A stretch of DNA of 64,000 nucleotides from Porphyra umbilicalis (taxonomy: Eukaryota; Rhodophyta; Bangiophyceae; Bangiales; Bangiaceae). The notes under the pieces were generated by a model. It did not search any database and was not told where the DNA came from. It saw only the letters and a program-made list of their open reading frames with translations. A program made the position numbers and the translations under genes. The stretch lies in the NCBI GenBank assembly GCA_002049455.2, contig KV918768.1, positions 310,001 through 374,000 on the forward strand. The letters are read 5' to 3'. Below are positions 8,780 to 48,905 of this stretch, piece after piece. Every line of letters begins with the position of its first letter. Positions within the stretch are counted from its first letter, which is position 1.

Positions 8780-9990
8780 CTCCGTACGGGAACAAGTACG
8801 GCGGCCGCCGCCGCGCGTGATGTTGCACGACGGCGGCAGCCGCCGAAGGAAACAAGTACGGCGGCCGCCGCCTCTCCTGTCGTGGCACGGCGGCGGCCGC
8901 TGCCAAACACAACAAGTGCGGCGGCCGCCGCCGCCCGTGGTGTCGCGTGGCGCAGACGCCGCCGCAGGGGAACAAGAGCGGCGGCCGCCACCGCGCATGG
9001 TACGTCACGGCGGTGGCCGCCCCTCCGTACGGGAACAAGAATGCCGGCCGCCGCCGCGCGTGATTTGGCACGACGGCGGCCGCCCCCCTGTACGGGAACA
9101 CATACGGCGGCCGCCGCCGCGCGTGATGTCGCACGACGGCGGCAGCCGCCGAAGGAAACAAGTACGGCGGCCACCGCCTATCCTGTCGTGGCACAGCGGC
9201 CGCCGGTGCCGAACACAACAAGTGCGGCGCCTCTCCTGTCTTGCGACGGCGCCGGCCGCTGGCAAACACAACAAGTGCGGCGGCCGCCGCCGCCCGTGGT
9301 GTCGCGTGGCGGCAGACGCCGCCGCAGGGGAACAAGTGCGGCGGCCGTCACCGCGCATGGTGCGGCACGGCGGTGGCCGCCCCGCCGCAAGGGAACGAGT
9401 GCGGCGGCCGCCACCGCGCATGGTGCAGCACGGCGGCGGCCGCCCCTCCGTACGGAAACAAGTACGGCGGCCGCCGCCGCGCGTGATGTCGCACGACGGC
9501 GGCAGCCGCCGAAGTAACCAAGTACGGCGGCCGCCGCCTCTCCTGTTGTGGCACGGCGGCGGCCGCTACCAAACACAACAATTGAGCCGCCTCTCCTGTC
9601 GTGTCACGGCTGCGGCCGCTGGCAAACACAACAAGTGCGGCGGCCGCCGCCGCCCGTGGTGTCGCGTGGTGGCAGACGCCGCCGCAGAGGATCAAGAGCG
9701 GCGCCACCACCACGCATGGTGCGGCACGGCGGTGGCCGCCCCTCCGTACGGGAACAAGTACGGCGGCCGCCGCCGCGCGTGATGTGGCACGACGGCGGCC
9801 GCCACCGTAAGCAACAAGTACGGTGGCCGCCGCCGCGCATGGTTTGCTGTGGCGGCGGTCGCTGCTGTAGGGAAACACTAGCGGCGGCCGCCGTCGCCGT
9901 GCCCGGCGTGGAGCGGTGGCGGCCGCCGCTGCGCACAGACGACGACGGCGTGCGGGGTGGTTCGCGCTGCGGTGGCCGCCCTCGCGAAGG
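8780..9990. repeat. About 61-bp GC-rich minisatellite with higher-order structure
   Basis: A unit built around AACAAGTACGGCGGCCGCCG recurs about every 60-62 bp (for example 8791, 8851, 8911, 8971, 9033, 9096, 9157), giving roughly 20 units. Nearly every unit contains the NotI octamer GCGGCCGC or a one-base variant. A subtype containing GCACGACGGCGGCAGCCGCC recurs at about 8825, 9131 and 9491, so the array has a second periodicity of about 306-360 bp. Both strands are open in several frames only because stop codons are rare at this base composition. No gene is called. Confidence 0.85.
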
Positions 9991-13409: not shown

Positions 13410-13436
13410 TATCCGTCTGACCCCAGATAACAACCA
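13410..13436 (+). repeat. Left member of a 27-bp long-range inverted repeat
   Basis: This sequence, with core ATCCGTCTGACCCCAG, matches the reverse complement of 31299-31325 at 26 of 27 positions. A second, related motif (ACCCCAGATAGCAACCAT) follows at 13587-13604 and has an inverted partner at 31278-31295. The pair brackets 17.9 kb that contains the complete CACTA-like element, so it may be that element's terminal inverted repeat. No matching target-site duplication is evident. Confidence 0.6.
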
Positions 13437-13779
13437 TTCATATTTTTCCTGACGATCCCGCGGCCTGTTGTTGGCGTAAAGCACACCGTTGGAGAGCTGA
13501 TCACCTCACGAGCTCAGCGGTTTTTTTTTCTGCTTATGGCGCTTCTTTTTTCCCTGCCACAGGTATGTGGGTCTATTTGGGGGGGTACCCCAGATAGCAA
13601 CCATCGCATTCTCATATGAAAACGGATGATCCACTCACTGTTGACCGAGTAGTTGGGGATGGGTATTTGATTCGCCGTCGGTGTTGGTTCCCAGACAACC
13701 CAAGAAAACCCCAGAAAATCAGCTGGTGACCCGGAACGACCCCCAACATCCACCCTCTGGAGGCACCTAGCCCGCGCCT

Positions 13780-14095
13780 TGCGCTTCTCTCCTTCGCCCA
13801 GTTCCCCTCCTTCGCCTCCCTCCCCATTCAGCAGGTCCCCCTCCCTTTCTCAGCCCCCCCCGCCTTCATCAAGCCGTCCCCTCTTCATCAAGTCGGCTCC
13901 GCTCCCTCAGGTCCTCCCCCCTCCAGTCTACCCTTTCTTGGGGTCCCCCCGCCTTTATCCCCCCCCCCCCCCCCCCCCTTCCTTGGAGCTCCCCCCCGTC
14001 CTTGGAGCCCTTCCTCTGAGCCTCCTCCCTACCTCGAACACCCCTCCTCTTCAAAGCTCCGCCCTCCTCGGCGTCCCCCCCTCTTCGGTGCCCCG
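13780..14095. repeat. Homopyrimidine tract
   Basis: About 300 bp are almost purely C and T on the + strand, with poly-C runs (longest near 13960-13978) and repeated CTTGG steps. Such tracts can adopt triplex (H-DNA) structure and often cause assembly length errors. The ORFs across it are composition artefacts. Confidence 0.7.
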
Positions 14096-14639
14096 CTCAC
14101 CTGGGCGCATGGGACAGGAAGGAGGGGACCAGCAGGAACACATTACCATTGACATGATGTACATGTCGTAGCCAGAATATGCGGCAGTAGACAAAAGTGC
14201 AGTGACACAGCGCCCGAGGACGGCAGCAGTCGCCCAGAAAACCAGATGAAGCCGTCTGGGCAAACAGCGAGAAGGACGCAGTAAACGGAGCCCCAGATGG
14301 CTCCAGCACCTGCTCTCAGGGGCTCCAAACCGGGGGATATGTAATGAGTATCTGTACAATGGTATGTGGGGTCCTGGTTAGCTGAAGGATGGTTATAGAG
14401 GCGCAGAAAGGGGGGGGGCGGTGGGTATGAGGTGGCGGAAGGGATGGAAACTCGATATCCTGAGCAAGACGGGCGCTCGATGTCACCGATCCGACCTGAC
14501 AGGGTCACCAGGGCCGGAATTAACTCATAAATTTGAGCGGTTCTCATGGCGTCTCAGACACATCCTCGTGGGTTTTTCTGCGGCAAGTGCTCCGATCGAC
14601 TTCGAACCTTCACCGTTGGAAATCCCTTGAGCTGACGAC

Positions 14640-14960
14640 ACCGTGTGTTGGTATGAAGTTCCAGATTCTTTCTCGTGAAAAATATTCCAATATAAATAAG
14701 GAAGCATCTTTTGAACTGGATGGAAGACTGTTCGCAGGAAAATCTTGGAGAAAGGTTTTGACATATCTTTGATGTTTTTCTTTCTCGCCCCGGAAAGAAA
14801 GTTCCGGAGACAGGACCTGAAATTATCTTGGTCAGACTCTTGGATCATCCTGATCCTTCTTCCAGGATTATCCTGGGAACTGTCCCGGAACGGTCCCCAC
14901 GATAGTCGGTGAGATAGAGTCCTGACACATCCACCAGTTTATTTGCAGGACTGCACCTCC
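14640..14960. other. Possible decayed end of a CACTA-like element
   Basis: This AT-richer stretch shares two motifs with the flank of the transposase gene of the complete element: AAATAAGGAAG (14694-14704, also near 31110) and AGGATTATCC followed by GGGAAC or GGTGAAC (about 14858, also 30839). It is dense in short ATCC/GGAT words. A detached or degenerate subterminal region is a reasonable but weak reading. Confidence 0.3.
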
Positions 14961-15113
14961 GAAAAGGTGCACGGACTGGCGTCAACTCGTGTACAAGACT
15001 ACGGCAGCGTTGCTCCAGGAAAATTTTCTAGGGAGATTGTAGCAAAAGATACCAGCGTCCTGACACAATCCTTCTTTGGGAGCTGCACGGGGCACGATGC
15101 CAGAAGAAGCTCG

Positions 15114-15479
15114 CATGCGCATCCGGAGGATAGTTTTCCGAAGAGGACGTCGCATTTTGTGCAGGTCAAGCCCATACACAATCTTGTGTTCTTCCGCTAC
15201 AGTTGCACATGCAAGATGCTCACGCGAGCGTTCCTCTGCCTATTGCGCAACACTGTCTCCCGGTCTTTTACGGAGATGTTCCTCGCTATTTTTCAGCATG
15301 TGCGTCCGGAGGATAGTTATGCGAAGAGCACGCCGCCTTTTGTGCAGGTCAGGCCCATACACAATCTTGTGCGCTTCCGTTGCAGCTGCACATGCAAGAA
15401 GCTCATGCAAACGTTCCTCTGTCTATTGCGCGACACTATCTCCCGGTCTTTTACGGAGATGTTCCTCGCTATTTTTCAG
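15114..15479. repeat. 183-bp tandem duplication
   Basis: Copies at 15114-15296 and 15297-15479 are about 90% alike by eye. Both begin CATG(C/T)GC(A/G)TCCGG and end with the same TTCCTCGCTATTTTTCAG. The period is exactly 61 codons and a + strand frame (15076-15633) is open through both. The predicted peptide has no recognisable domain, so I leave it as a repeat. Confidence 0.85.
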
Positions 15480-15862
15480 AGCACGGTCCCAGAGAAAGAC
15501 GCTCAGATTTGCGAGCAGCAAACCTCCCAGAGAGTTCTTCACGCAAAGCTACAGGACTCTCCCATACAACGTATGGCACGATCACCTCCTGCCATTTTTG
15601 TCGGGATTGCCAGCAGAAACAAAAATTATATGACACAGAGAAACAATAAAGAATACTACTGATAAAAATAGAGAACAACAACAGGTGCGTGCTCAACTTG
15701 CCCACCGAGGGGCATGTGGTACAGGGCTCTCCAGACAGTTCTCTCCGTACCCTCGTCAAAGCGGACCAGCGGGACGGTTGTATCTCCGTTCACGTGGCAA
15801 GAATACCCTCATGGAACCTTATACCGTGGGTCCCACGCAGCGTGTGGCATCGTGACCAACCA

Positions 15863-16717
15863 TTAGTCTGAGTCCTCATCAGATAGATTGATGTCACCGG
15901 CCTTGAGGTCTTTGAGCTCGTCGCGCATGCAGCGGACGACGCTCTTGCGTGCCTCAGCGCTCTCCGGGCGTAAGAACTTGGGATACTCCGCGTCATCCAC
16001 ATACTTCTTCAAGCAAGCCGCGGCGCCTTCACGAACGGAGGTCCACACCTCGCTCGGATCCAAGAACAGGAGCTCTCCTACGATGGACGCGGCTGCTCCA
16101 TTCAAGTCCAGAGGTCGCTCCATTTCCTGGTCACCGTCCTGCAGTTTCAGGCGGTACCCAATGCTGCTTGCGCTACCGAGGGCCGCCGGCACCGCTGCTT
16201 GAGCAGTGTCATTCACACTGCCGGCCAGAACAACACGTTCCAATGTGGCCTCTTTGACATCAGCGTCCAAGTAAACCCCCAGGATACGATAGGCCAACAG
16301 TCTTGCTGAGGCGCGTCGTCGATTGCATCGAGTACGTAGGCCCTTCCTCAACGCAGCTCTCACTTCACGCCGTTTCTGGGACCATCCACTCGCACCGTAA
16401 TCAATCTTTCCGACACATTTCTCAACCGCCTTGTTCACAACAGCACGGAGGGGGCGAGTGCAGTCTCGATTGGGGCCTTCCAGCTGCCCAGTGGGCGCGA
16501 GCCATGACAGGCAGTCATGTTCAGGCGAGTCCGCTGCGCTGCCATTCGTACCAGGGTTCACGGACCCATTGCGTGTCTTCTTGAGCATGGCTTGGCCATA
16601 CCTGGTAAACAGGCTGCTCACTTCATCCTGCAGGAGGTGATATCCATTGGTAAAAACAAGCGTACATGGGGCGAGGCGGACGTACGGAGATGCGCACAAG
16701 CGGCCATCGTCGACCAT
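15863..16717 (-). CDS. Hypothetical protein, acidic C-terminus
   Basis: The frame is open for 326 codons from 16843. I take the ATG at 16717 (MVDDGRL), which leaves 284 residues. I recognise no domain. What is visible: a mixed N-terminal part, a strongly basic helix-like stretch in the middle (KRREVRAALRKGLRTR), a hydrophobic/charged region (ILGVYLDADVKEATLERVV), and a C-terminal third with evenly spaced leucines ending in an acidic tail (NLSDEDSD). Its base composition is less extreme than its surroundings and the frame is free of low-complexity runs, which favours a real gene or gene fragment. It lies inside the 17.9-kb interval bounded by inverted repeats, so it could be transposon cargo. 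The function is unknown. Confidence 0.45.
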   Translation of the reverse strand: MVDDGRLCASPYVRLAPCTLVFTNGYHLLQDEVSSLFTRYGQAMLKKTRNGSVNPGTNGSAADSPEHDCLSWLAPTGQLEGPNRDCTRPLRAVVNKAVEKCVGKIDYGASGWSQKRREVRAALRKGLRTRCNRRRASARLLAYRILGVYLDADVKEATLERVVLAGSVNDTAQAAVPAALGSASSIGYRLKLQDGDQEMERPLDLNGAAASIVGELLFLDPSEVWTSVREGAAACLKKYVDDAEYPKFLRPESAEARKSVVRCMRDELKDLKAGDINLSDEDSD

Positions 16718-16849
16718 TGATGTTAGGTCGTGTGTGGGCGTAGATCTACAAGAGGTAGAATAAAGCGGCACCAGAGCAGAGTACACACGAGCACCACGCT
16801 CGTATTCAACACCACGGTAGCACGTACCCCGTGAGCGTTCCACACACTC

Positions 16850-17949
16850 AGAAAAAGGGCGGCGGCGACGGCAGGCGAGTTCGGACCCGGTGAGCCCTGC
16901 GGGGCGCCGTTGTGGTCTTCAGCGTCTCTTTCAGCCATCGCAACGCCCGCACCCAAGGGGATGACTGCGATCTGTCATCAGTCGAAATCAGGCGCAGGTG
17001 ACAGACTGACCCAGGCCGATCGTTCTTCAGAGCCGAGCGTAACAACATGTCCACGTCTCGCGCATACGTCAGTTCGTACGTCAGTCCCTACAGCATGCGC
17101 TGCGCGGTGCGCTGCGCCGAACGCCGCGCTCTATCAGCTTGTGTGCCGGGCAATCTCCGCCCGCACGCACCTCATACGTATCAGGGAGACGAAGGATCTC
17201 ATATGAGACCACCGCAAGCTCAAAGGCCCAGCCACATACTGTCGCCCTGGAAAAAGTACGATCATTAGAGACAAATGGTGCATGCAGAGTGCGGCACAGT
17301 CCTGCAGATTGATGCCGCGCCTAGAGATACGGTCAGACTGCTGACGGCAGCATCAGAGGATACCAGACACTGACCTCCACTTCTCGCGCCTGGGCGGTAT
17401 GTGTACTCGAAGTACCTGAGGTAGTTCCTCACAAGAATGGCAAGTTGCGGATTAGTAATTCCATTCGGAGATATCGCGTTATCCGGTTGCTTGATGGTGG
17501 CGGACGAGTGAGCTCGATTTGGTGGCCGCCGCCCTCCACGCCTCGGCCGAACCTCGCGGCGCCACACACTTGAGGGGTCGCCGCTGGGGAGCGTTGCAGG
17601 GAGGGGGCGCCAGTGGCACACGGGTGTGGAGGGCCGCGCCAGTTCTGTGTGCGTGCGGGCAGCAGGGGCTAGGTTTGGACGAGGCGCTCGTCAAGCTGTG
17701 CGCGCGCGGCGCCCGGTGCATGCCCTCGTGTCGTCGACAACGCATGCCCCTCTTCGTCTTCACCACTCCTTTCTCCACCCCCCACCCTCCCACGCGCTGG
17801 TTTGTCATTCTTTTCCGTTTGACGAACCCCGATCCCCATCCGCTTGCCCCCCCACCACCACGTTCACAGAGAGAGGCTGACACTTGTGACAGCTACCCCG
17901 CTTTCCAACGCGTGATATTCACTTACCCCCAGTGCGGTACGGACCTATA
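16850..17949. other. No gene recognised
   Basis: Overlapping short ORFs occur on both strands without motifs. The right part (about 17730-17870) is pyrimidine-rich. Nothing else is supportable. Confidence 0.4.
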
Positions 17950-20157
17950 TCGTAAGTCGGCGACCTTCGGGGAGGCCGGCTGGATCGCGGCCCGCCCCTG
18001 TGCTGGGCAGGGCCGCGTATCCACGCCGTCGGCGTGGGCGCCCCTTTTGTGAGGGCGCCCGCCGGCGGTGTAAGAGGGCCACCACTATGGTGAGGCGGTC
18101 CCAGGACACTGTTTGGGCCGCCTCTGGACAGGCGGCCCCGGTGCAAACCCGAGTCGGCCACCTTCGGGGAGGCCGCCTGGATCGCGGCCCGCCCCTCTGC
18201 TGGGCAGGGCCGCGTATCCACGCCGTCGGCGTGGGCGCCCCTTTTGTGAGGGCGCCCGCCGGCGGTGAGAGAGGGCCGCCACTTGGGTGAGGCGGCCCCA
18301 GGACACTGTTTGGGCCGCCTCTGGACAGGCGGCCCCGGTGCAAACCCGAGTCGGCCACCTTCGGGGAGGCCGGCTGGATCGCGGCCCGACCCTCTGCTGG
18401 GCAGGGCCGCGTATCCACGCCGTCGGTGTGGGCGCCCATTTTGTGAAGGCGCCCGCCGGCGGTGTAAGAGGGCCACCACTTGGGTGAGGCGGCCCCAGGA
18501 GACTGTTTGGGCCGCCTCTGGACAGGCGGCCCCGGTGCAAACCCGAGTCGGCCACCTTCGGGGAGGCCGGCTGGATCGCGGCCCGCCCCACTGCTGGGCA
18601 GGGCCGCGTATCCACGCCGTCGGCGTGGGCGCCCCTTTTGTGAGGGCGCCCGCTGGCGGTGCAAGAGGGCCGCCACTTGGGTTAGGCGGCCCCAGGACAC
18701 TGTTTGGGCCGCCTCTGGACAGGCGGCCCCGGTGCAAACCCGAGTCGGCCACCTTCGGGGAGGCCGCCTGGATCGCGGCCCGCCCCTCTGCTGGGCAGGG
18801 CCGCGTATCCACGCCGTCGGCGTGGGCGCCCCTTTTGTGAGGGCGCCCGCCGGCGGTGCAAGAGGGCCGCCACTTGGGTGAGGCGGCCCCAGGACACTGT
18901 TTGGGCCGCCTCTGGACAGGCGGCCCCGGTGCAAACCCGAGTCGGCCACCTTCGGGGAGGCCGCCTGGATCGCGGCCCGCCCCTCTGCTGGGCAGGGCCG
19001 CGTATCCACGCCGTCGGCGTGGGCGCCCCTTTTGTGAGGGCGCCCGCCGGAGGTGCAAGAGGGCCGCCACTTGGGTGAGGCGGCCACAGGACACTGTTTG
19101 GGCCGCCTCTGGACAGGCGGCCGCGGTGCAAACCCGAGTCGGCCACCTTCGGGGAGGCCGGCTGGATCGCGGCCCGCCCCACTGCTGGGCAGGGCCGCGT
19201 ATCCACGCCGTCGGCGTGGGCGCCCCTTTTGTGAGGGCGCCCGCTGGCGGTGCAAGAGGGCCGCCACTTGGGTTAGGCGGCCCCAGGACACTGTTTGGGC
19301 CGCCTCTGGACAGGCGGCCCCGGTGCAAACCCGAGTCGGCCACCTTCGGGGAGGCCGACGGGATCGCGGCCCGCCCCTCTGCTGGGCAGGGCCGCGTATC
19401 CACGCCGTCGGCGTGGGCGCCCCTTTTGTGAGGGCGCCCGCCGGCGGTGAGAGGGCCGCCACTTGGGTTAGGCGGCCCCAGGACACTGTTTGGGCCGCCT
19501 CTGGACAGGCGGCCCCGGTGCAAACCCGAGTCGGCCACCTTCGGGGAGGCCGCCTGGATCGCGGCCCGCCCCTCTGCTGGGCAGGGCCGCGTATCCACGC
19601 CGTCGGCGTGGGCGCCCCTTTTGTGAGGGCGCCCGCCGGCGGTGCAAGAGGGCCGCCACTTGGGTTAGACGGCCCCAGGACACAGTTTGGGCCGCCTCTG
19701 GACAGGCGGCCCCGGTGCAAACCCGAGTCGGCCACCTTCGGGGAGGCCGCCTGGATCGCGGCCCGCCCCTCTGCTGGGCAGGGCCGCGTATCCACGCCGT
19801 CGGCGTGGGCGCCCCTTTTGTGAGGGCGCCCGCCGGCGGTGAAGAGGGCCGCCACTTGGGTGAGGCGGTCCCAGGACACTGTTTGGGCCGCCTCTGGACA
19901 GGCGGCCCCGGTGCAAACCCGAGTCGGCCACCTTCGGGGAGGCCGACGGGATCGCGGCCCGCCCCTCTGCTGGGCAGGGCCGCGTATCCACGCCGTCGGC
20001 GTGGGCGCCCCTTTTGTGAGGGCGCCCGCTGGCGGTGCAAGAGGGCCGCCACTTGGGTTAGGCGGCCCCAGGACACTGTTTGGGCCGCCTCTGGACAGGC
20101 GGCCCCGGTGCAAACCCGAGTCGGCCACCTTCGGGGAGGCCGGCTGTGTGGCGGCCC
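17950..20157. repeat. 197-bp hairpin-rich satellite, 11 units
   Basis: The same landmark (TATCCACGCCGTCGGCGTGG) recurs at 18018, 18215, 18412, 18609, 18806, 19003, 19200, 19397, 19592, 19789 and 19985, a period of 195-197 bp. Each unit contains three short self-complementary hairpins: CCACGCCG-T-CGGCGTGG, GGGCGCCC-9 nt-GGGCGCCC and GGCCGCC-8 nt-GGCGGCC. Units are highly alike, implying recent amplification or homogenisation. The array stops about 115 bp before the C-family gene at 20272. Long ORFs across it (up to 727 codons on the minus strand) come from the lack of stop codons and are not called. Confidence 0.92.
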
Positions 20158-20271
20158 ACCCCTTTGAACTGTCTGCTCGATCGACGTTGAAACATTACGG
20201 CCACAGCCCTGTAAGAAAAGGTCCCGCCGCGTGATAAAACCGCTTGCGGAGACGGTGAGGCCGCTTTCGGT

Positions 20272-22745
20272 ATGTCAAAGCACGGTAGTCCGCCGAGTCC
20301 CAACGGCGACGACGTCCCCATGAACGGATCTGACGAGGTTTCGGGGCGCTGTGTCAACTATGCGCGCGGTCAGCGGCGCCGTTTTGGTCGGGCCCAAGCT
20401 AACGCGGCACGACTGGCGGCTGAGGCGCTGCGGATCGCCCAAGCCGCGGCAGCGGCGGCCGACGCCCTGCAAAGCTCACGGCTGGATGGAGCCCTGCAAG
20501 CGGCTCGGCGGGGCGACGATGGGCCCCGCGTGTTTGATTCATTGCGGCGCGGCTCGGACGGCGGCCGGTCAGGCCCGAACGATCTTCCACGCCCCCCTGC
20601 TGCCGTCGCGGCGTCTGGCGGGCAGATGGCAGCCGTCGCGGCGTCTGGCGGGCAGACGGAGGGTGTGCGGCCCGCTCGACAACCTGGGCAACTGCTGTCG
20701 GAACCGGCGTCGGCACAGACTCAGCAGGCTATTGGGTCGGGCCCCGTTGCACAGGCGGTTCACTCTGCGTTTGTGTCCGTCATCCAAGGGGCTCGCGGCA
20801 CGCTCATTGGCTCCGTTGGCGGGCTGTCACCTGGGCAGCTGAATATGGCGCTAGCTGCGCTCGAATTCTCTGGCCCGGGCTTCCTGCCCGACACTAAGCG
20901 CCTTGAGATTATGCGGGGCTGCTCATCGGGATGTGGACACGTGGCGGGCCTCGATTCGACGATGTTGGGAGCTGTAAGCATTCTGCAAGGAGGTGGCACT
21001 GTCACGCAGGCGGCCCGATTTCTGCGCCAAGGCCTCTCGTCGCACGCGTGCGACGGAGCGTGCCGCCAGGCGCACCGTCCGTCGTCTCGACTGGTGGACA
21101 CGCCATCTGAGCGACCCGCTCTGCCACCATCCCGCCGTCCCCGCCCCCACCTACGAGGCGTTTCGCGGTCACCGTCTCCGGGCCCGCCGTCAAAGCGGCA
21201 ACGCGGCGCAACCTACCCCCGGACACGGCTCGCGGTCGACGCGGGGGTGCTGCAGCCAGAGATTCCTACTCTGGCGCGCACGAGAACCCCAAAACGGGGT
21301 ACGGTGAGCTGCCTTGGCTCTTTCCCCGCAATGCCGAGCGCCGGGTGGAGCTGTCGCGTGGTGACGCGCAGTCGATCAGGGGCAGGAGCGCTTTGACGCA
21401 GAGGATTGTGGACGGAGTCTTTTTCTGGTTCCTTTCGCGGTCGGTCACCTCCCGGTCTCATGGAGGCTTGCGGGTGCTCTCTTCAATGACAGCGGACGCC
21501 CTCGTTGGCGCGGCGGCCGGTCTGTCGTGGGGAGTACGCCTCGGGGGCAAGGAGATCAAGGACGGCATGGTACTAAGCGGTGGTGTGTCCGTGATGCCCG
21601 TGCGCACTGGCCGTGTGTGGTGGGGTGTGGTCGTTCGGGACCTCCACAAAGTGTTACCGCTGTTGGTCAAGTACATGAGGTGTGAGACAGACTCCCCGGG
21701 TGTGCCGGCGTCGTCCGAGGGAAACGTGATCGTCATTGACACATCGGGTGTCGGTAAGGGCGACGGCGGCTGGAACGACCGCGTGCTGAACGGCCTGTTC
21801 ACGATGCTTGCCTCCACAGTAGCGGACACGTACTCTATCAAGAAGAACGAGCTCGGTCACATCGAGAACAACTTGAAGATGATGCTGCCAGTCAGTGTCG
21901 TGGCACCCAGGCGGAGCTTCACGTACGAGACTGCCGACAACCTTCTAGCTTTCGTAGCTGCTCTGATTGGGGCGCCCGATGACGCCACCCAAAGGGCGCT
22001 GCTGGACGCCAACTCCTCGGACTGGCGGAAAGCGCACTTCCCGGACGAGTTTCGCCACCTATTGCGGCGCCTGCTCGTGGCGCACCACCCCTCACATGAA
22101 GAGCTCAACGAAGAGCAGGAAGCAGAAGCGTTCATGAGCGGATCTGGCGCGGATGCAGGCAGCAGTGCCGACGGTGGTAGGAACACTTGCAGCGACCATA
22201 AAATGACCGACCGCGGTGACAGCGAAGACGACGACGACCAAGGACCAGGAGAGGCGCGTGCCGCAAAGACAATCAGACGATCCGACAGCTCTGGCAGTCG
22301 TGCCCGTGGCCGTTTGAGTGGCGGCAGTGCCGCGGGAGCCGCCAGCAGCCGCACATACGGCGCAGGTGGTGGGCGTCGTGGTGAACGCGGCGGTCAAGAT
22401 GAGCAAGACGAAGACGCGCCTGGTGGTGGCCGTATTGGCGATGAGCCGAGTGGTGGTCATGACGAACAAGGACGCGGTGATCTAGGTCGGTCTGACGCTG
22501 GCTGCGATGGTGTCCGTGTCGGTCCAGGGGGTGGTGCAGGTGGTGGGTGTCGTGGTGCAGGCGGTGTTCAAGCAATTCATCAACAAGACAGTTGTGGTGG
22601 TGGAAGTGTCGGCGGTGGGCAGGGTGGCGGTCAACATGGACACGCACTCGGTGGTCGCCGTAGGTCTGATGTTGGCCGCGATCGTGGCCGTGTCGGTCAA
22701 GCTGAAGATGCAGGTGGCGGGCGTCGTGGTTCACGCGGCGGTCGA
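20272..22745 (+). CDS. C-family transposon protein: Cys/His domain, Ulp1-like region, RG/D tail
   Basis: Start MSKHGSPPSP is followed by an Ala-rich helix (residues about 40-70). A conserved domain comes at about residues 170-265: LIGSVGGLSPGQLNMALAAL, then MRGCSSGCGHVAGLDS, ending HACDGAC. Near 21300 the reading moves from frame 1 to frame 3, by a short indel or an unrecognised intron, and continues with FPRNAERRVELSRGDA. The next segment (21370-22080) is laid out like a Ulp1/C48 SUMO peptidase: a QRIVDGVFFWFL helix, VSVMPVRTGRVWWGVVV where HW.L would lie, VIVIDTSG, and TADNLLAFVAAL where DCG.FV would lie. Catalytic His and Cys are therefore replaced. An acidic stretch (EELNEEQEAE, DSEDDDD) leads into the RG/D repeats, where the frame drifts. 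It could be a DNA- or protein-binding accessory factor. C48-like ORFs are known in CACTA and MULE elements. Confidence 0.6.
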
Positions 22746-24600
22746 GGTCCTCAGACGAAGACCCGCCTGGTGGTGGCAGTGTTGGCGGTGGTCAGAGTGG
22801 AGGTCAAGATGAGTAAGCACGTGGTGGTCGTGGAGGTCTGGTGTTGGCCGCGATGGCGGCCGTGGCGGTCAAGGTGGAGGTGTGCGTGGCGGGCGTCGTG
22901 GTGCACGCGGCGGTCAAGGTCTTCAAGACGGAGCCCCGCTTCGTGGTGGCCGTGTTGTGATGGCCAGAGTGGCGCTGGTGATGGACAAGCACGTCGTGGT
23001 CGTGGTCGGTTTGATGTTGGATGCAATGGCGGCCGTACCGTTCAAGGTGGAGGTGGCGGTCGAGGTCCCCGAGACAAGACCCGCCTGGTGGTGGCAGTGT
23101 TGACGGTGTTCAGAGTGGAGGTCAAGAAGAACACGCACGCGGTTGTCGTGGTCGGTCTCGTATTAGCCGCGATGGCGGCCGTGGCGGTCAAGGTGGACGT
23201 GCGGATGGCGGGCGTCGTGGTGCACGCGGCGGTCAAGATGCGCGAGACGAAGACGCGCCTGGTGGTGGCCGTATTGGCGATGAGCCGAGTGGCGGTCATG
23301 ACGAACAAGGATGCGGTGATCTAGGTCGGTCTGACGCTGGCTGCGATGGTTCCGTGTCGGTCCAGGGGGTGGTGCAGGTGGTGGGCGTCGTGGTGCAGGC
23401 GGTGTTCAAGCAATTCAACAACAAGACACTTGTGGTGGTGGAAGTGTCGGCGGTGGGCAGGGTGGCGGTCAACATGGACACGCACTCGGTGGTCGCCGTA
23501 GGTCTGATGTTGGCCACGATCGTGGCCGTGTCGGTCAAGCTGAAGATGCAGGTGGCGGGCGTCGTGGTTCACGCGGCGGTCGAGGTCCTCAAGACGAAGA
23601 CCCGCCTGGTGGTGGCAGTGTTGGCGGTGGTCAGAGTGGAGGTCAAGATGAGCAAGCACGTGGTGGTCGTGGTAGGTCTGGTGTTGGCCGCGATGGCGGC
23701 CGTGGCGGTCAAGGTGGAGGTGTGCGTGGCGGGCGTCGTGGTGCACGCGGCGGTCAAGGTCGTCAAGACGGAGCCCCGCTTCGTGGTGGCCGTGTTGATG
23801 ATGGCCAGAGTGGCGCTGGGATGGACAAGCACGCGTGGTCGTGGTCGGTCTCACGTTGGCCGTGATGGTGGCCGTGTGGGTCAAGATGGAGTTACATGTG
23901 ATGCGCGTCGTGGTACAGGCGGTGGGCGTGGTGCACACGATGATAACGGGGGCCGCGCCCTTCGTCGGTCTGATGGTGGTCGTCGAGATGCAGACGTTGG
24001 CGCAAGTGAGGACAGCTGCGGTGACGATGGTGCCCGAGTTGCGAAAGACCATGGCGTTCAGCGAGGTAATCTTCCGTCTGGTGGACATGACGGCCGAGGT
24101 GCAGGAGCATCCGGCCTTGGTCCTGTCGGTGGCGGCGGGCAAGTCGGTCGACGTGAACATCCATGCGGTGGTGGCCGCTTTGGCGGTGGGCAGAGCGAAG
24201 GTCAAGATGAACATGCACGCGGTGGTCGTGGTCGGTCTGATGTTGGCCGCGATGGTGATCGTGTCGGTCATGGTGGAGATGCAGGTGGTAGGCGTCGTGG
24301 TGCACGCGGCGGTCAAGGTGCTCAAGACGAAGACCGGCTTGATCGTGGCAGTGTTGGCGGTGGGCAGAGTGGCGCTGATGATGATCAAGCACGCCGTGGT
24401 GGTGGTCGGTCTGACGATGGCCGAGATGGTGGCCGTGCCGGTCAAGGTGGAGGTACATGTGATGCGCGTCGTGGTACAGGCGGTGGGCGTGGTGCACAAG
24501 ATGATCACGGGGGCCGCGCCCTTTGTCTGTCTGGTGCTAGTCGTCGAGATGCAGGCGTTCGCGCAAGTGAGGACAGCTGCGGTGACGATGGTGCCCGAGT
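22380..24600 (+). repeat. Coding tandem repeats of the RG/D-rich tail
   Basis: A degenerate repeat of roughly 120 bp (GGCGGTCAAGGTG...GTCGTGGTGCACGCGG type) fills this stretch. A larger duplication of 838-839 bp is also visible: 22440 onward recurs at 23279 onward with few differences. In one frame the product is Gly/Arg/Asp/Gln-rich (GGRGAHDDNGGRALRRSDGG). In another it is Val/Ala-rich. The RG/D reading continues directly from the acidic block of the C protein and recurs in the other copies, so I take it as the true frame. Because 838 is not a multiple of three, the duplication shifts frame. From 23021 one frame runs uninterrupted into the JmjC gene, so a fused product cannot be excluded. 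Confidence 0.7.
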
Positions 24601-24973
24601 TGTGCACCATGTTGGCGTGGGAGGGGGTCAGCTTCACTCTGATGGCAGGGGTTTTGTTCGTGCCGATGTGGGGCACGGCATTCGCCAAGTCGTTGATCTC
24701 AATGATTGCGCTGCTACAGCCGCGGCCGAAGCGCTCTCTGACACCCGTGCTGGACATCGAAGCATGGGCACCACCGCAGGACACAAAGGCCGTAGCGTGC
24801 AGCGCTCAAAGCGACGCCCGAGCGGGGATGGTCGAGGGTGCTTGAAAGACGCACTCTCTGACCAGCTACCCGCTGGTGACAGCACAGCCGCTCCACAAGC
24901 GGATGGCGCTCGTCAGGAACCGCGACGCTTGCAACACGAGGACCCTGTCGTGGAGACGCGGGCTGCCGCGCCA

Positions 24974-26731
24974 ATGGCCCTGGGCTTTCACCCAATTCCT
25001 ATTACCTGCTTAAGTACCGTACAGGAACTCGGACTGCATGGTTTGATTCGATCGCAGGCAGCGTCGATCCGTACATTTGGTGCACACGTGTTCCGAATAG
25101 TAACACCTGATATTCGACCTGTGCCATCTCTAGCGCCCCAGCGAAAGGTTGGGGTGAAGGTCCGGGTGCGGGTTCAGACTTTCCCGCAATACCCAACTAT
25201 TGTCAGCGAGTCCTTCGCTGGCAGTGCAGAGCCAGACCCTGCTATCAAGCGCGACGGGCTCCAAGCACAGGTGCCGCCTGAACGGGAGATGATGCTATCG
25301 ACTGCTGTTATCAAAAGAAGGATGCGCGAGAGCACAACCGCTCTTCGCGCCCGATACAAGGGCTTCGGTGTACCGCAGTTCCTTCAGAACGTGAATGATC
25401 TGAGGGTCACCTGGGTGAGAGGTGTGACATCAAGCGGCCACGAGACAAGAGCCCTGGGTCCCGCAAAGCCTAATCCAATAGACGTGTACTACGTTTCGGA
25501 CATGACTCCAGCCAATGAGGATGGGTGTGGCAGGAGCCTGGGTGACAGTGCCTGTGCAGCTGAACCGGAGCCCTTGCTGTCCAGTGAACGATTCCACAAC
25601 CCTCGTACGCTGAACCACCACAGCATGTTAGGCGCATGTGCCACATACGAGGGTATCAACACTAGTCTGCTATACATGGGAAGCGCCGGCTCGCACTTCA
25701 GCTGGCATGTTGAAGACCATCTCCTTCAGTCGGTCTCCTACCTGCAGTCCGGAGCGAGTAAGTTCTGGTTTTTCGTTCCGAGATCTGAAGTCCCCAAGAT
25801 GGTACGCGTCATGAGTGAATGCATGGACCCTGTCGTGCTGAAGGCAGCAGGAGGAGATGTGTGGAAGCTTCTCGCTGAAAAGGCCGTCTTGTGGCCGGCG
25901 TCGTTTTTCCTCGCCCACGGCATTCGCGTCGGCTTCCATGAAATGAAAGCAGGGGACTTCGTCGTCACGGGCTATGGTGTTCCGCACAGCGGCTTCAACG
26001 CAGGGACCAACGTAGCATCTGCAGTGAATATTGCGTGCACTGGCTGGCTTGTGCACGCGATTGAACACGCGGCCCAATGGCGTGGAAAGATTGGTATGCT
26101 GATTCCTTTCGAGAAGCTGCTGGTTCTTAGCGCTCTGAAGCTGGCTGATGGGAAGTGGTGGTGTGGTGACGCGCGATCCTACGAGGAATGCGACCCAGCA
26201 GAGTTCCAAAGAGACCTGAAAGTCATGACGTCCTACTTGACGGAGTACCTGGACTGCGTCCTGGAGTACATGAGTCGCAACTCGCACCCGGCGTGGAAGG
26301 GGAAGAAGCCAACTGTGCTGGACTTGCAAGCGGCCCCCCAGGGTGTTCAGCAGTTCGTCCGTGACAACGCGATTAAACCAGCGGGTAAACCCTTGGTACT
26401 CCCGAACGAGAACGAGGGAACCGCTACAGACTACTCTGTCGACGGTGCGGCGTGTCCTCACTGTGGAATGGTCGTCTGGCTATCTGTAGTCGTGTGTCCG
26501 GCCTGCATTGAGCAGCTGGGAGATGGAGCAGGACCTAGAGCGCCTATCTGTTGCTGGCGATGCGCGCCAGCCATGTACGACGACTTGCACTACAGGCCCG
26601 AGCAGGCCGACGGGAAGCAGCCGCTCCTAGTCGGATGTCACTCTCCTTTGGTGGTGCAGCGGCTGTCCAATGGCCGCGCCTACTTGCTAGCGGATAAGTT
26701 GAAGAGAGTTGGGGCAGAGAGAGGTGACTAG
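24974..26731 (+). CDS. JmjN-JmjC-C5HC2 protein, KDM5/KDM4-like demethylase (element A)
   Basis: 585 residues from MALGFHPIPI. Residues about 6-45 resemble JmjN. The JmjC core contains GINTSLLYMGSAGSHFSWHV, closely paralleling KDM4 proteins, with iron ligands His245 and Glu247 (HVE) and His338 in GVPHSGFN. A lysine (SGASK) sits where the 2-oxoglutarate-binding Lys lies in KDM4A, while the nearby Asn is Ser. A helical segment (MLIPFEKLLVLSALKL) leads to a C5HC2-type zinc finger from residue 494 (CPHCGMVVWLSVVVCPAC, later CCWRCAP). All iron ligands are present, so an active Fe(II)/2-oxoglutarate dioxygenase acting on histone methyl-lysine in the nucleus is the natural inference. No PHD or ARID is seen. 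It lies upstream of and convergent with the transposase-like gene, 433 bp away. The start is chosen at JmjN; the frame is open back to 23021. Confidence 0.85.
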   Translation: MALGFHPIPITCLSTVQELGLHGLIRSQAASIRTFGAHVFRIVTPDIRPVPSLAPQRKVGVKVRVRVQTFPQYPTIVSESFAGSAEPDPAIKRDGLQAQVPPEREMMLSTAVIKRRMRESTTALRARYKGFGVPQFLQNVNDLRVTWVRGVTSSGHETRALGPAKPNPIDVYYVSDMTPANEDGCGRSLGDSACAAEPEPLLSSERFHNPRTLNHHSMLGACATYEGINTSLLYMGSAGSHFSWHVEDHLLQSVSYLQSGASKFWFFVPRSEVPKMVRVMSECMDPVVLKAAGGDVWKLLAEKAVLWPASFFLAHGIRVGFHEMKAGDFVVTGYGVPHSGFNAGTNVASAVNIACTGWLVHAIEHAAQWRGKIGMLIPFEKLLVLSALKLADGKWWCGDARSYEECDPAEFQRDLKVMTSYLTEYLDCVLEYMSRNSHPAWKGKKPTVLDLQAAPQGVQQFVRDNAIKPAGKPLVLPNENEGTATDYSVDGAACPHCGMVVWLSVVVCPACIEQLGDGAGPRAPICCWRCAPAMYDDLHYRPEQADGKQPLLVGCHSPLVVQRLSNGRAYLLADKLKRVGAERGD

Positions 26732-27164
26732 ATCAGCAGCGTTTTGGTTGTTTCTGAGGTTCGGTCTTCTGGAATGAGTATGAGTTTGTTTGCGGCGACA
26801 TGACGCGCGGAGGGTACCTTCGTGACGTATGCTGTATTTCTTTGATTCATTGGAATGTTTTGAAACGAGCACTCTCCAGACAAAGGTGCTATGGGTGGGA
26901 GCGCCTCAATCCGTGCTTTCTGCCCCGCCATTCACGTAGCATTGGCATGGCTCGCGATCCACGAACTATCCCCACAATCCAAACTACAGCGTACAAGTTA
27001 CGACGTCGGAAACAGGCTATGGCAAGAGTGCCCATAGTGCAAAGACAGCATATTAGTGCAAGGACAGCATATTACCAAGTGAGGCGGACAGGTGTTAAGC
27101 ATGCGCTGAACGCACTACTCTATCTACTGTGTGCATGCTCTGCGAAAGATACATGTAGCTTCCC

Positions 27165-30152
27165 TCAACCACTCTTAAAATGAAAGCCCGACTTCTTGGT
27201 GAACAGAACGTTGTGCGTACCGCAAGGGAGAACAAAAGCAGACTGCTTCACCCGCTCAGCGCGCACGAGAGACACACTGGGTGTAGAATCAAGTGTGACC
27301 ACCGCAGGTTTCCCCACGATGGATAAGGCCAAATCCGACACTTTCCACGCTTCACACTCGAGGTGTAGCTCTTCCGCTATAGTGCCGATTGCTCGGACCC
27401 GACAGAATTGGAATCTCTGCACTCCTGTGGCACCGGAGTCGCTCACTCCGTCAGATGGCCCTCCGTCTTGGAGCACTGACACTGTCGACCCCTCTCGAAT
27501 GAGGAATGATCTCTGCGGGTTCCTGGCTCTCCTCCAGAACTTGATGAGCGCGTTCGGTGCATGAGCCCTCCAGAGCTCCTCTGTCGAGACAGAGACGGTT
27601 CTCAGTGCTTCCTTGCCTCGCCAATCTCCGACGATGGTAGATGCCAACCGCCGCTGCGGAGCGAGTCTGTGGAACGAGACGGCCTTCAACGGATTTCCGG
27701 CCAGGCCAAGCAGCCACGACGGAGGGATGCCATGCTCCTCTGGCATGGAGAGCGCCCTTGAGTACTGCTCTGTGTCTCTCCACCTCTGCATTGAGTACTC
27801 CGCTGCGTTTCGATGGTTACTCTGGCTGACCTCGCGCTTCGCCATCTGATGGAAGTTCTCAAATATCAGCTCGCATATTGCTGAGCCGAGCTGCACCAAC
27901 GGTAACGTACGATAAAGAAGCTCGAGCAGGCGATGGACAGACGGTCGCTCCCATTTTCCATTGAATGGTAGCAGGCGACGTAGCTCAATCATGAGGCTTT
28001 CGCCGAGACGTTGCAGCTCCACGACAGTTGGCCGCTCCCTTACGGCCTGCTCTCCGTCGGACGAAAGCGTAGGCCTATAAAATAGAGCAGTAGAAAACTG
28101 TCGTAGGGCCTTCAGTGCGCGAAGCGTAGTAACCGCATGTGTACAGGTAGTTGGAGTGTGCACACCATACTCCAAGACCGTGGGACTCACGGTAAGCAGC
28201 ACGGCGTAGTCGGACATGGAAAGCGTTGTGCCACCCATTTTTTCAGGCTCAAAGGAGGAAAGTACCGTGTGTTTCGGAACATGTTTTGCACTGCGGCGCA
28301 TTTCCACCACGAACTTGTCACGCTGCTCAACAGAGAGTGACTCGTACGCTTCCATCAGTAGGTTGGATCCAATGTTGTAGTACAGAAGATGAGATGGAGC
28401 AACAATCACATGTTCGTGTATGTCAAACGTCCCTGGACCTCGAGCATCAGTCAGGCGCATCATCAGGCTACCTGACTTGTCCGTAACGCCGTTTAGGAGG
28501 AGTGCGTCTTTCAAAGCTTCGGCAGACAACTGGGTAGAAGTCTTCAGTGCGGACATGATGGCAGCTGTTCTCTCTTGCACTCTGGAGTATCGGGTGTCTT
28601 TGACATCAAAAGAAGCGGTGCTGCTCATAGCGCGCTCCTTCCTCTCACTCCTGGTCTTCGGGTGGACAATGTCGCAGCTGGTGCAGTGCTCAGTTCCAGG
28701 AGCTCCTACAGAGTTGGAGAACTTGGCAGCCATAGGAAAATCAAACACGCCGATGCACAAGAATACCTGCACCACGACGTTCTCCTTCGAGTACGCGTCA
28801 TAGACAGCAACACCTTCTTTGCTCATTTGGAGCATGTCCTCCACGACACGTCTCAGTAGAGCGTCAGGGTTTGCCCCAGGAGGCAAGTAGAAGAGTGGAC
28901 GTACGGAGAAGGCACGGTCATCCAAGCTCAGAGACGTGTACGCACCGTAGTACCCCTCTAAGCTCCCACGGCGTCGCTTGTACACGCTAAACTCATCACC
29001 GTACAATGAGACGTACAGAGTGTGTGGGTCTTTCTCCTTCAGCCCATCTTGGGCTTTCTCAGCCACTTGGTCCAGCTCGATCGGCTTCACTGCCGTCAAG
29101 AGGGACCACGAGTCCTTCTGGCGCTCGGACGAGCTGCGCGCGGCACTAACAAACACGCCTCCTGACCTCGTGAACCTCAAAGTGAGCCTGCAATCGTCTT
29201 GGAAGCACGACGCCCACGGCTCAGGAGGCTCAAACTCATTAAGGACCTCAAACAGCCCCAGCAAGTCCCCAACTCGGAGAGTGCTCTGGGGAGCGTACGA
29301 TGACTCTGAGATAGAGACGTCGCCGTCGGATGCAATCGCTGTACTTTCCAATCGGGCCTGAAACCTTGTGTTGTCATCCAAGGAGACAGAGACAATGCAT
29401 CCGATACCGTACATGTATCCATCTCTGAAAAAGCCGTTCTTGAAGTTGAAACGAGCCGGATCCCTGGCCGCCACTGTCTGAAAGAACTCTACAGGGCGCT
29501 CAACAGTCCCGGCGCGTGCATCCCCTTCGCGATGGAACAGAGCCGCTGTCACTGGGTCCCCAAAGTCCCTCTTTATGTGCACAGAGAACGGAATGTAGGA
29601 CACAGTAACGTCAGGCAGCTTGCGGAGGGTCTTTCCTTTGCCAACGGGTAGCTGCCTCGTCGTCACCTCGCGTCTCAGCGGTATTGCGGAGTTCAACATT
29701 TTCTTTCGCATCTGTTGTAAGCGCCACCTCGACGGCCACCTCTCCTTGGGGCTGAATGAGTTCTCTGCCTCGCGCATGATGTCGTACTGCCGGAGTGTGA
29801 GACGAGCTCGTCCAAAGAGGTAGCCAAAGCACAGGAATTCCCGGCGAGAAGCAAACTGTCCAGGTGGTCGTTCTTCTTCACTGGAGATGTCTGTATCGTC
29901 CGAGGGACATCCATCAGGCTCAGAGTCTGAGGACATGACTACATCGTGGTAGACCTCCGCAGCGGCAGTGTGTGACGGCGTTTCTCCCAACGTGCTCGGG
30001 TTCTCCGTCACACAGATGCTTCCAGACTCCTCTATGGTCATAGCTCTCGAACCTGTTGTACACGTGGCCCGTTGCGACTGAAAATGCCGGAGGTCTCCAT
30101 CGGCAAGATCGAAGAACGCGGTGCCTCGAGGTCCACGCCTGCGACGCTTCAT
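27165..30152 (-). CDS. CACTA/TNP2-like transposase candidate (element A, intact)
   Basis: 995 residues. The start MKRRRRGPRG is chosen because all three copies share it; an in-frame ATG lies 15 nt upstream. An acidic stretch (residues about 70-95) precedes a conserved region (FGRARLTLRQYDIMREAENS). The central segment LYGDEFSVYKRRRGSLEGYY, then RPLFYLPPG, an EGVAVYDAY stretch, VFDFPMAAKFS and GTEHCTSCDI follows the pattern of the Transposase_21/TNP2 family of CACTA elements: first Asp near 386, second Asp in VFDFP near 471, then a Cys-x2-Cys. ELIFENFHQ near residue 765 could supply the acidic third residue. The C-terminus ends FTKKSGFHFKSG in a form conserved among copies. It presumably cuts the transposon ends. 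The family call is by pattern only; a distinct, uncharacterised DDE family remains possible. Confidence 0.6.
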   Translation of the reverse strand: MKRRRRGPRGTAFFDLADGDLRHFQSQRATCTTGSRAMTIEESGSICVTENPSTLGETPSHTAAAEVYHDVVMSSDSEPDGCPSDDTDISSEEERPPGQFASRREFLCFGYLFGRARLTLRQYDIMREAENSFSPKERWPSRWRLQQMRKKMLNSAIPLRREVTTRQLPVGKGKTLRKLPDVTVSYIPFSVHIKRDFGDPVTAALFHREGDARAGTVERPVEFFQTVAARDPARFNFKNGFFRDGYMYGIGCIVSVSLDDNTRFQARLESTAIASDGDVSISESSYAPQSTLRVGDLLGLFEVLNEFEPPEPWASCFQDDCRLTLRFTRSGGVFVSAARSSSERQKDSWSLLTAVKPIELDQVAEKAQDGLKEKDPHTLYVSLYGDEFSVYKRRRGSLEGYYGAYTSLSLDDRAFSVRPLFYLPPGANPDALLRRVVEDMLQMSKEGVAVYDAYSKENVVVQVFLCIGVFDFPMAAKFSNSVGAPGTEHCTSCDIVHPKTRSERKERAMSSTASFDVKDTRYSRVQERTAAIMSALKTSTQLSAEALKDALLLNGVTDKSGSLMMRLTDARGPGTFDIHEHVIVAPSHLLYYNIGSNLLMEAYESLSVEQRDKFVVEMRRSAKHVPKHTVLSSFEPEKMGGTTLSMSDYAVLLTVSPTVLEYGVHTPTTCTHAVTTLRALKALRQFSTALFYRPTLSSDGEQAVRERPTVVELQRLGESLMIELRRLLPFNGKWERPSVHRLLELLYRTLPLVQLGSAICELIFENFHQMAKREVSQSNHRNAAEYSMQRWRDTEQYSRALSMPEEHGIPPSWLLGLAGNPLKAVSFHRLAPQRRLASTIVGDWRGKEALRTVSVSTEELWRAHAPNALIKFWRRARNPQRSFLIREGSTVSVLQDGGPSDGVSDSGATGVQRFQFCRVRAIGTIAEELHLECEAWKVSDLALSIVGKPAVVTLDSTPSVSLVRAERVKQSAFVLPCGTHNVLFTKKSGFHFKSG

Positions 30153-30167
30153 CGTTTCGTTATGCAC

Positions 30168-31298
30168 TGTCTTTTTGACACGCTCACAACACGCAGAAGC
30201 GCAGTTCGGATCCCAGTAACAGGCACTTCAACGTATAGCATATCAACCGTATTCGCAGGGAGGCGCTCACGGGGCGTGCCTGTGGACGCTGCGACGTAAG
30301 ACAAAGGCGTCAACAAATTCGAGAGCGCAGTCTGAGATGCCGCCTGTGGGCCAGGAATGGTGCCGGAAGCCGAGATGCCAGCTTGAGTGACTGGCACTCA
30401 ACCCGACCGATGACAGAGGGGGGAGTCCCAAGCAGAATCGATACGGATCAGACCGGTGGAAGGACGATAGGACGCTCGCTACTGTGCCAAGTACGAACAG
30501 AAGCCGAGCAAACAGGTCTCCACGCACTTCGGCTGTACTGTGGCATGACAAGAGCCCAACACCGCTTAGCCGCGTGGGCTACATGCTCGCAAGAATCTAA
30601 TTCGTCTCTATGCATAGAATCCTGAAGCTGGCCCCCTCCTTGAGCCGAACGAACCATCCGTGCAGCGTCCTACATCTTCGAGCGACGGACGATCGCAGAA
30701 CTGGAACGTGCGCCGATCTCTAAAACAAGCGACAGAAAAATCTCTCAGACAATCCCAAAGATAGTCTGCTGCTCTGCTCTTCGATTGTTCCCACGGACTA
30801 TCCACCGTGCAGTCCGCCTCTGATCCCAGGTCAGTTCGTAGGATTATCCCGGTGAACAAGACAGAAGTCGCCCGAGAAGAGTTCTCTGCATTTTCCAAGA
30901 GAAAGAACCTATACCAATCCTGTGATGATTGTGGCGTGATATTGGGATCGTCCGTCGAACAATTCTAGGGACTCCTTCGTATCGATCCGTCGATCGCTGT
31001 GGGATAATTCAGCGGATAGTTCCAACCTGTGTGCGGGATTGACCTGGCTGCACGAAAAGGACTGTCCTGTGGAAACCTCTGCAGACAGTCTCATTTAGGG
31101 GCCAGGATTAAATAAGGAAGAGGTCGCAAATCGCTGTGGAGTGCGTTGGTCTGTGGAAGTTTGGCAAACGAGTTTAGTCGTCTCGGTCATATGAGCATGA
31201 AGTGGTCTCGTGCCATTTTCTGAAAAATCAGATAAATCACTTCATATGTAGACAATGTGGAAAACGCACATTACAGTATGGTTGCTATCTGGGGTCAG
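30168..31298. other. Gene-less flank upstream of the transposase gene; subterminal-like words
   Basis: I see no gene. The stretch 30780-31110 is rich in short GGAT/ATCC words, several arranged as small inverted repeats (GGACTATCC, GGATTATCC, GGGATAATTC), with ATTAAATAAGGAAG at 31107-31120. The corresponding flanks of the other two copies (42760-44370 and 59920-60120) have similar words, including GGACTATCC near 59960 and CTTATTTAATCCT near 42766. Subterminal repeats of this sort are usual in CACTA elements, so this may be where the transposase or the C protein binds. Confidence 0.4.
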
Positions 31299-31325
31299 TG
31301 GTTGTTAACTGGGGTCAGACGGATA
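31299..31325 (-). repeat. Right member of the 27-bp long-range inverted repeat
   Basis: Reverse complement of 13410-13436 with one mismatch. A second inverted motif pair sits directly inside it (31278-31295 with 13587-13604). It lies 1.1 kb beyond the transposase start of element A, where the element's terminus would be expected. Confidence 0.6.
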
Positions 31326-31522
31326 TCGGAGTGGCCCGATCGTTCCCTCCGGAGGTGTACACACCACAGCGGCCGATGGACTCTGCTTCTCGACGTGATT
31401 TTCGGTGTGCTCACGCGGAACCCGTCATCGAATGTTTCTACAAATTTTGAAGCCATTTGGAGCAAGCACGACAACGATAGGCTTCAAAACACCAGGTGTC
31501 TAATAGAATGGGATAGACTTTA

Positions 31523-31821
31523 GTGTCTATTCTACCGAGTGCATCATTTGTTGCCCTGGGCATCAATCGATGCACTTTTTTGGCACCATTTTTCTCGTGC
31601 TTCCCGGCCTCGCACGCTCCTCTTTACAACAGAAACGGACTCAGAGATGTCTTGTTACTCTTGGGGGAACTCGGAGCCATTGTGCTACGGATACCAACGG
31701 GGGGTGCTCCAGACGCCAGAAAAAGGGGGGTCGAACCGTCGTTCTCTGGCCCTGTGAGAGGGTGCATCATTTGATGCACCACCGGGCATCATTTGATGCC
31801 ACTATTCGGTAGAATAGACAC
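31523..31821. mobile_element. MITE, Tc1/mariner type, 299 bp
   Basis: Terminal inverted repeats begin GTGTCTATTCTACCGA at 31523-31538 and end with the exact reverse complement at 31806-31821. TA dinucleotides flank both sides (31521-31522 and 31822-31823), as expected for a TA target duplication. The similarity of the arms continues inward for roughly 55-60 bp through repeated GCATCA words. The interior has no gene; the short ORF starting in the left arm is a chance frame. Size, TIR and TA flanks fit a mariner-derived MITE. Near-perfect ends imply fairly recent insertion. Confidence 0.85.
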
Positions 31822-31824
31822 TAG

Positions 31825-48902: not shown

Positions 48903-48905
48903 TCT

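Follow-up and report, generated by a model that had tools for sequence, protein, structure and literature searches.

A probable family of CACTA-like transposons that pair a tnp2-type transposase with a JmjC protein in Porphyra umbilicalis

En/Spm elements have repeats near their ends and encode a second element protein. The closest known case to the locus described here is that of the TET/JBP genes borne by fungal transposons, which PMC12730594 reports from EnSpm, ESTA, Plavaka and other elements and for which it proposes an escape from methylation-based silencing. ESTA elements are described there as EnSpm-like with TA target duplications, and a C(2)C motif that follows the second catalytic aspartate is given as a feature of CACTA/EnSpm (CMC) transposases. 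A transposon with a dioxygenase eraser of its own is already known from this account; for the JmjC class of eraser we found no report in the open-licence literature. JmjC is not mentioned in the main text of PMC12730594, the terms JmjC, jumonji and demethylase are absent from PMC13317346 and PMC12062965, and the titles and abstract beginnings listed from the open-licence literature hold no report of a JmjC gene in a transposon.

The window, that is, the whole stretch of 64,000 nucleotides of P. umbilicalis contig KV918768.1 that was analyzed, has a GC content of 52–79% (in 2-kb steps), and traces of mobile elements are abundant throughout. An earlier note on this DNA had described a convergent JmjC/transposase module at three sites, one of them inverted, and this was confirmed by a blastn comparison of the window with itself and by tblastn. 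Genes for a JmjC protein and a Transposase_21 protein lie tail to tail in copies A, B and C (Table 1), and the JmjC partner stands beside the transposase, with the convergent order kept, in all three. Together with the Pfam matches and the conserved metal ligands given below, this agreement far exceeds what chance would produce. The copies sit within about 40 kb and differ in orientation and flanks in the blastn self-comparison. Over matches of at least 1 kb they share 68–71% (about 70%) DNA identity by blastn, in the coding parts only, and their surroundings gave no further blastn match to each other. The 138-bp array of copy B starts inside the JmjC gene of copy C. Nesting of copy B within copy C was considered and rejected, the missing half of copy C not being found by tblastn to the right of copy B within the window. 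We read the three copies, with a probability of about 0.6, as diverged members of a CACTA-like (CMC) transposon family, each with a tnp2-type DDE transposase and a JmjC protein that most likely serves anti-silencing. The transposon-family reading is based on the pairing in three of three copies, the unlike flanks, the inverted-repeat pair around copy A and the similar purifying selection on the two genes; common ends, which a family of elements with JmjC cargo as proposed in the earlier note would share, did not emerge.

Table 1. Positions of the features of copies A, B and C within the window.
Feature	Copy	Positions	Strand	Remarks
Candidate left terminal inverted repeat	A	13410-13436	+	TATCCGTCTGACCCCAGATAACAACCA; matches 31299-31325, inverted, at 26/27 bases
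197-bp tandem array	A	17955-20163		11.2 copies, 96% matches; directly ahead of gene 1
Gene 1 region	A	20272-22220	+	Within ORFs 20272-21396 and 21345-23324
174-bp tandem repeats	A	22362-24501	+	Gly/Arg/Asp-rich linker between gene 1 and JmjC part
JmjC part	A	24953-26731	+	592 aa, open
Transposase	A	27165-30152	-	995 aa from ATG, open; GTG at 30167
Candidate right terminal inverted repeat	A	31299-31325	-	26/27 identical to 13410-13436 inverted
Transposase	C	44378-47365	+	Inverted; in-frame stops at 45182, 45788 and 46148
JmjC	C	47614-48912	-	5' side cut off at start of copy B 138-bp array; one in-frame stop
138-bp tandem array	B	48904-50061		8.4 copies; before gene 1
Gene 1 region	B	50309-52483	+	Stop at 52199-52201
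JmjC	B	about 54546-56321	+	In-frame stop at 55914
Transposase	B	about 56515-59427	-	Three frame pieces

The copy A transposase matches Transposase_21 (PF02992) at E=2.7e-8 (33.7 bits, cut-off 28.6), and the same family was matched at E<=0.1 in all nine members of alignment A1. Its candidate catalytic and zinc residues, assigned by eye and numbered from the GTG, are D391, D476, C495/C498 and E770. The C(2)C motif is represented by CTSC at 495–498, 19 residues past D476, and C-x2-C is found in 13 of 14 rows (P0016 reads CTSR). Eleven of 14 rows retain the second catalytic aspartate, which is replaced by G in copy B, by a stop in copy C and by Y in P0022. An H(3-4)H spacing occurs as HVPKH at 629–633, with both histidines in 10 of 12 rows (P0016 and P0020 have Y at the first); a pattern nearer the presumed last residue E770 (by eye) reads HRLLE, which leaves the identity of the H(3-4)H motif uncertain. 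The copy C gene comprises 996 codons, with one of its three in-frame stops at the second catalytic aspartate. A transposase of 995 aa had been claimed for both A and B; this is wrong for copy B, whose 971 codons are broken into frame pieces. The transposase profile gave no meaningful match against PDB (best E=0.4), and an AlphaFold2 model of the protein was discarded (pLDDT 32.5). Going by its transposase, the element works like a member of the broad CMC clade and is probably one.

In copy A, the module lies between the two candidate terminal inverted repeats. Extra copies of the repeat core were found at 13584 and at 31279–31298, the latter abutting the right repeat, and a 20-base core, a pattern drawn from these same sites, has four matches in the window at up to three mismatches against none in 100 shuffles. 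The long-range repeats around copy A start with TATCCGTCTGACC (with TCCG, if the TA is a target duplication) and follow neither CACTA...TAGTG nor CA..TG. With TA at both outer ends, the copy A element may comprise 13412–31323 (17.9 kb) with a TA target duplication; as TA is a 2-bp palindrome and hence its own inverse, it may instead be part of the repeat. In CACTA/EnSpm elements, target duplications measure 2–3 bp. A pattern scan did not reveal the copy A repeats at B or C, and in the stretches scanned for the ends of these two copies, exact inverted matches did not exceed 13 bases. Because copy A fails the CACTA terminal motif, we keep the term CACTA-like of the earlier note as a label: it is justified by the transposase (Transposase_21 and C(2)C), and the termini speak against it. 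A weak likeness of non-coding DNA upstream of the transposase favors a shared ancestry of the copies that is not confined to their coding parts, with local scores of 63 (A-B), 53 (A-C) and 54 (B-C) against maxima of 43, 39 and 35, respectively, in 20 shuffles each. Upstream or flank likeness exceeded all 20 shuffles in three of five comparisons and did not do so in the other two.

Several other repeats and mobile elements were observed in the window. Two adjoining ORFs in the same frame, split by a stop, at 10229–12094 (- strand) match Plant_tran (PF04827; E=2.9e-27 and 4.2e-25) and, judged by these matches, encode a PIF/Harbinger-type transposase. An ORF at 63041–64000 (+ strand) that runs off the window resembles by eye a Tc1/IS630-type DDE transposase, and a 540-aa ORF at 5800–7422 (+ strand) looks gag-like by eye and has no Pfam match at E<=0.1. 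A short MITE-like element at 31521–31823 has perfect 18-bp inverted repeats, TAGTGTCTATTCTACCGA, with 267 bp between them. At 43024–43769, 35-bp inverted repeats (74%) beginning TAGGGACTTTTGGCA apparently bound a short stretch inserted into the copy C flank. Tandem and direct repeats include a 60-bp minisatellite at 8788–9897 (18.5 copies, 71% matches, 360-bp higher-order period) and a 300-bp direct repeat (95%) at 61103–61869 with units spaced about 92 bp within.

The JmjC part of copy A consists of an N-terminal piece in the place of JmjN, the JmjC domain and a C-terminal Cys/His cluster. The domain matches Pfam PF02373 at E=4e-18, and a Pfam JmjC match was obtained for all of the 17 aligned proteins, three of which are the window copies. 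Copy B is 69% identical to copy A at the protein level. The iron ligands of copy A are H252, E254 and H345, and K270 is the 2-oxoglutarate lysine; as the earlier note had stated for the HxE...H ligands, all of these residues are present in each of the three window copies. Throughout the alignment, window copies included, the first histidine and the lysine are found in 17 proteins, the glutamate in 16 (one K) and the second metal histidine in 14 (one V, one Y and one gap in the others); a metal ligand is changed or missing in three of the 17. Two outside proteins, P0043 and P0046, are distant relatives of the element JmjC (35–38% identity) with the ligands kept, and may represent an early branch of the family or the source in the host from which it came.

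The JmjN and zf-C5HC2 domains that had been assigned to this protein were not recovered. For JmjN, no Pfam match was obtained at E<=10 in the 17 aligned proteins, eight of which reach the N-terminal piece, nor with the pieces alone; for zf-C5HC2 (PF02928), none was obtained at E<=10 in the 17 proteins, six of which cover the C-terminal cluster in full. Searches with this C-terminal piece alone and with a profile of it gave weak matches to other zinc-binding families only. The Cys/His cluster is invariant in five of five proteins, and a diverged finger could escape HMMER. No Pfam match to ARID or PHD was found for P0003 (E<=1) or P0023 (E<=10), and the Pfam matches of the element dioxygenase include no TET/JBP family, JmjC being matched instead.

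PDB was searched with profile A3 in place of A4, since A4 contained the KDM5-like P0048 and its E-values were biased accordingly. The best solved relative of the JmjC core is JMJ13, which came first in both PDB searches, followed by KDM5A and JMJ14, with JARID2 far behind the histone demethylases. The AlphaFold2 model of the JmjC protein is weak (pLDDT 46.5), and we take its Foldseek matches (KDM5B, JMJ13 and JMJ14 first, TM-scores near 0.24) and VIA matches (KDM5A, JMJ703, Rph1 and KDM4) as no more than support. The description of the protein as KDM5-like is borne out for the JmjC core, with JMJ13, KDM5A and JMJ14 as nearest solved structures, and does not extend beyond it, where matches to C5HC2, ARID and PHD are lacking. 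By these sequence comparisons, the dioxygenase is a JMJ13/KDM5-type core and not a KDM5.

Upstream of the JmjC part, gene 1 had been counted as the first of three genes in the module; two genes are more likely. An outside record, P0047, joins both parts in a single ORF of 893 aa, with 78% identity to copy A gene 1 over 408 columns and 79% to the copy A JmjC ORF over 451 columns, and the simplest reading is therefore a single long gene in which gene 1 probably supplies the N-terminus of the JmjC protein. The two parts lie in different frames in copy A, where the shift, through a frameshift or splicing, falls within the 174-bp repeats. The unit of the linker repeats is a multiple of three in both copies (174 bp in copy A and 249 bp in copy B), and one frame codes for a Gly/Arg/Asp-rich stretch. 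Ahead of gene 1, copy A has its 197-bp array and copy B, in the equivalent position, its 138-bp array. The gene 1 proteins of A and B share 32–39% identity, and gene 1 matched nothing in Pfam or in PDB at E<=10. A motif-based idea of a Ulp1-like protease was dropped, as gene 1 had no Pfam match and none in PDB at E<=10. A relic of gene 1 is present at 2577–4231 (+ strand) as pieces of 33–57% identity, with no JmjC or transposase match nearby by tblastn.

For the JmjC part, dN/dS was 0.12 (A-B), 0.10 (A-C) and 0.11 (B-C), and for the transposase 0.09 (A-C) and 0.20 and 0.14 (two pieces of B), values that are indications only because dS is saturated. JmjC and transposase appear from these ratios to be under similar purifying selection. 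Gene 1, with a dN/dS of 0.41, evolves faster than both.

Relatives of both proteins were found in outside records, in protein searches that each scored only about 8,000 candidates. The JmjC search gave 25 records, comprising 24 family members (two of them distant, 35–36%) and the KDM5-like outlier P0048, and two transposase searches gave 83; these unequal totals do not constitute a linkage test, since queries and length limits were not the same in all searches. The longest contig has 12,285 bases both in the record of a transposase (P0017) and in that of a JmjC protein (P0027). Their identities to copy B are 89.4% and 89.3%, respectively, and the two genes seem to lie on a single metagenome contig. 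Two of the 25 JmjC records match one of the 83 transposase records in the size of the longest contig, against 0.15 expected from jittered sizes, and about 1% of 20,000 jitter trials reached two such shared sizes. The second pair, P0061 and P0037, is less clean, with P0061 nearest to copy A (66%; copy C 65%) and P0037 to copy C (69%). Evidence for the pairing across outside records is thus indirect. No relatives were found in viral_contigs, genome_contigs or phages, from which records of the window's own genome were possibly excluded.

An old host pair of JmjC and transposase-like genes, locally duplicated and with a domesticated transposase, could also account for three copies within about 40 kb, for strong purifying selection and for the lack of common ends, the inverted repeats of copy A then deriving from another element. 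The isolated gene 1 relic and the absence of the copy A repeats at B and C likewise weigh against an element. However, the copies are decayed by stops and frame changes, they differ in orientation and flanks, and the array of copy B begins inside the copy C JmjC gene. Moreover, the 83 transposase and 24 JmjC family proteins from outside records span many diverged lineages, unlike a single host pair, and we regard this origin as quite improbable. Even less credible is that a host JmjC gene was captured once and is carried passively, as in Pack-CACTA elements, without function for the element. CACTA elements do take up host sequences (PMC13317346), but dN/dS is low over a saturating divergence, the catalytic residues are retained and JmjC is found in all three copies.

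We accordingly return to a transposon family whose members carry, or once carried, two convergent genes, one for the transposase and one for a long protein with an element-specific N-terminal region, a charged repetitive linker and a JmjC Fe(II)/2-oxoglutarate dioxygenase core close to JMJ13/KDM5. Points that weigh against it include the broken transposases of copies B and C, the change of frame between gene 1 and JmjC in copy A and the altered or missing metal ligand in three of the 17 aligned proteins. The transposase would cut at the repeats, and the JmjC protein would be held at repeats of the element through its N-terminal region, where it might demethylate histone lysines on the element's chromatin. 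By analogy with VANC and TET/JBP, this would keep the transposase gene and the ends accessible and the element expressed. That a CACTA-like lineage encodes such a self-targeted histone demethylase, in which a DNA-binding region peculiar to the element is linked by repetitive sequence to a JmjC core that removes silencing methylation from the chromatin of the element itself, is a tentative proposal to which we give somewhat less than even odds. Erasure of histone marks by the element JmjC, and its purpose, are our inference. H3K27me3 is a repressive mark. According to the structure titles, the JMJ13 structure includes an H3K27me3 peptide and the JMJ14 structure an H3K4me3 peptide.

As a protein of the element, the JmjC enzyme could instead act on something other than silencing marks, guiding integration to a type of chromatin or hydroxylating a protein, for example the transposase or some other nuclear factor. 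Substrates of JmjC enzymes are varied, and their specificity is not readable from sequence. KDM5A and JMJ14, the next solved matches after JMJ13, act on H3K4, where demethylation alone would not relieve silencing, and an H3K4 activity would fit anti-silencing poorly. Against this, histone demethylases are the closest relatives of the core, JARID2 coming a distant second to them, and JMJ13 leads both searches; such another role is in our view unlikely. JmjC as a standard gene of a DNA transposon would extend the arms race between element and host to histone marks and would offer a natural, perhaps self-targeted, demethylase for study. It could also account for some lineage-specific JmjC expansions now annotated as host genes.

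Compared with known systems, the element resembles En/Spm (CACTA) in its tnp2-type transposase (Transposase_21) and C(2)C motif, as well as in its repeats near the ends and its second protein, and differs in that the copy A termini are not CACTA...TAGTG and that its second protein carries JmjC. With KDM5/JARID1 and the plant JMJ13/JMJ14 proteins it shares the HxE...H, Lys and Asn residues, which align with those of KDM5A and JMJ13, and it has a similar overall order of N-terminal piece, JmjC and Cys cluster; unlike them, the element protein has no Pfam matches to JmjN, C5HC2, ARID or PHD and its JmjC is probably fused to an element-specific region. The VANDAL elements of Arabidopsis (PMC10398659, PMC5735166, PMC13317346) are alike in that an element protein counters the silencing of its own copies and in that VANC recognizes short motifs in element non-coding regions, whereas these elements are Mutator-like and VANC is reported there to act on DNA methylation, with no dioxygenase part described. 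The TET/JBP transposons of PMC12730594 are mostly DDE elements, CMC-type included, with an Fe/2-oxoglutarate dioxygenase of their own and a proposed anti-silencing role; there TET/JBP enzymes act on DNA bases, whereas the element here carries a JmjC of the JMJ13/KDM5 kind. If the self-targeted demethylase is real, the P. umbilicalis elements would match, at the level of histones, the transposons that bear TET/JBP or VANC.
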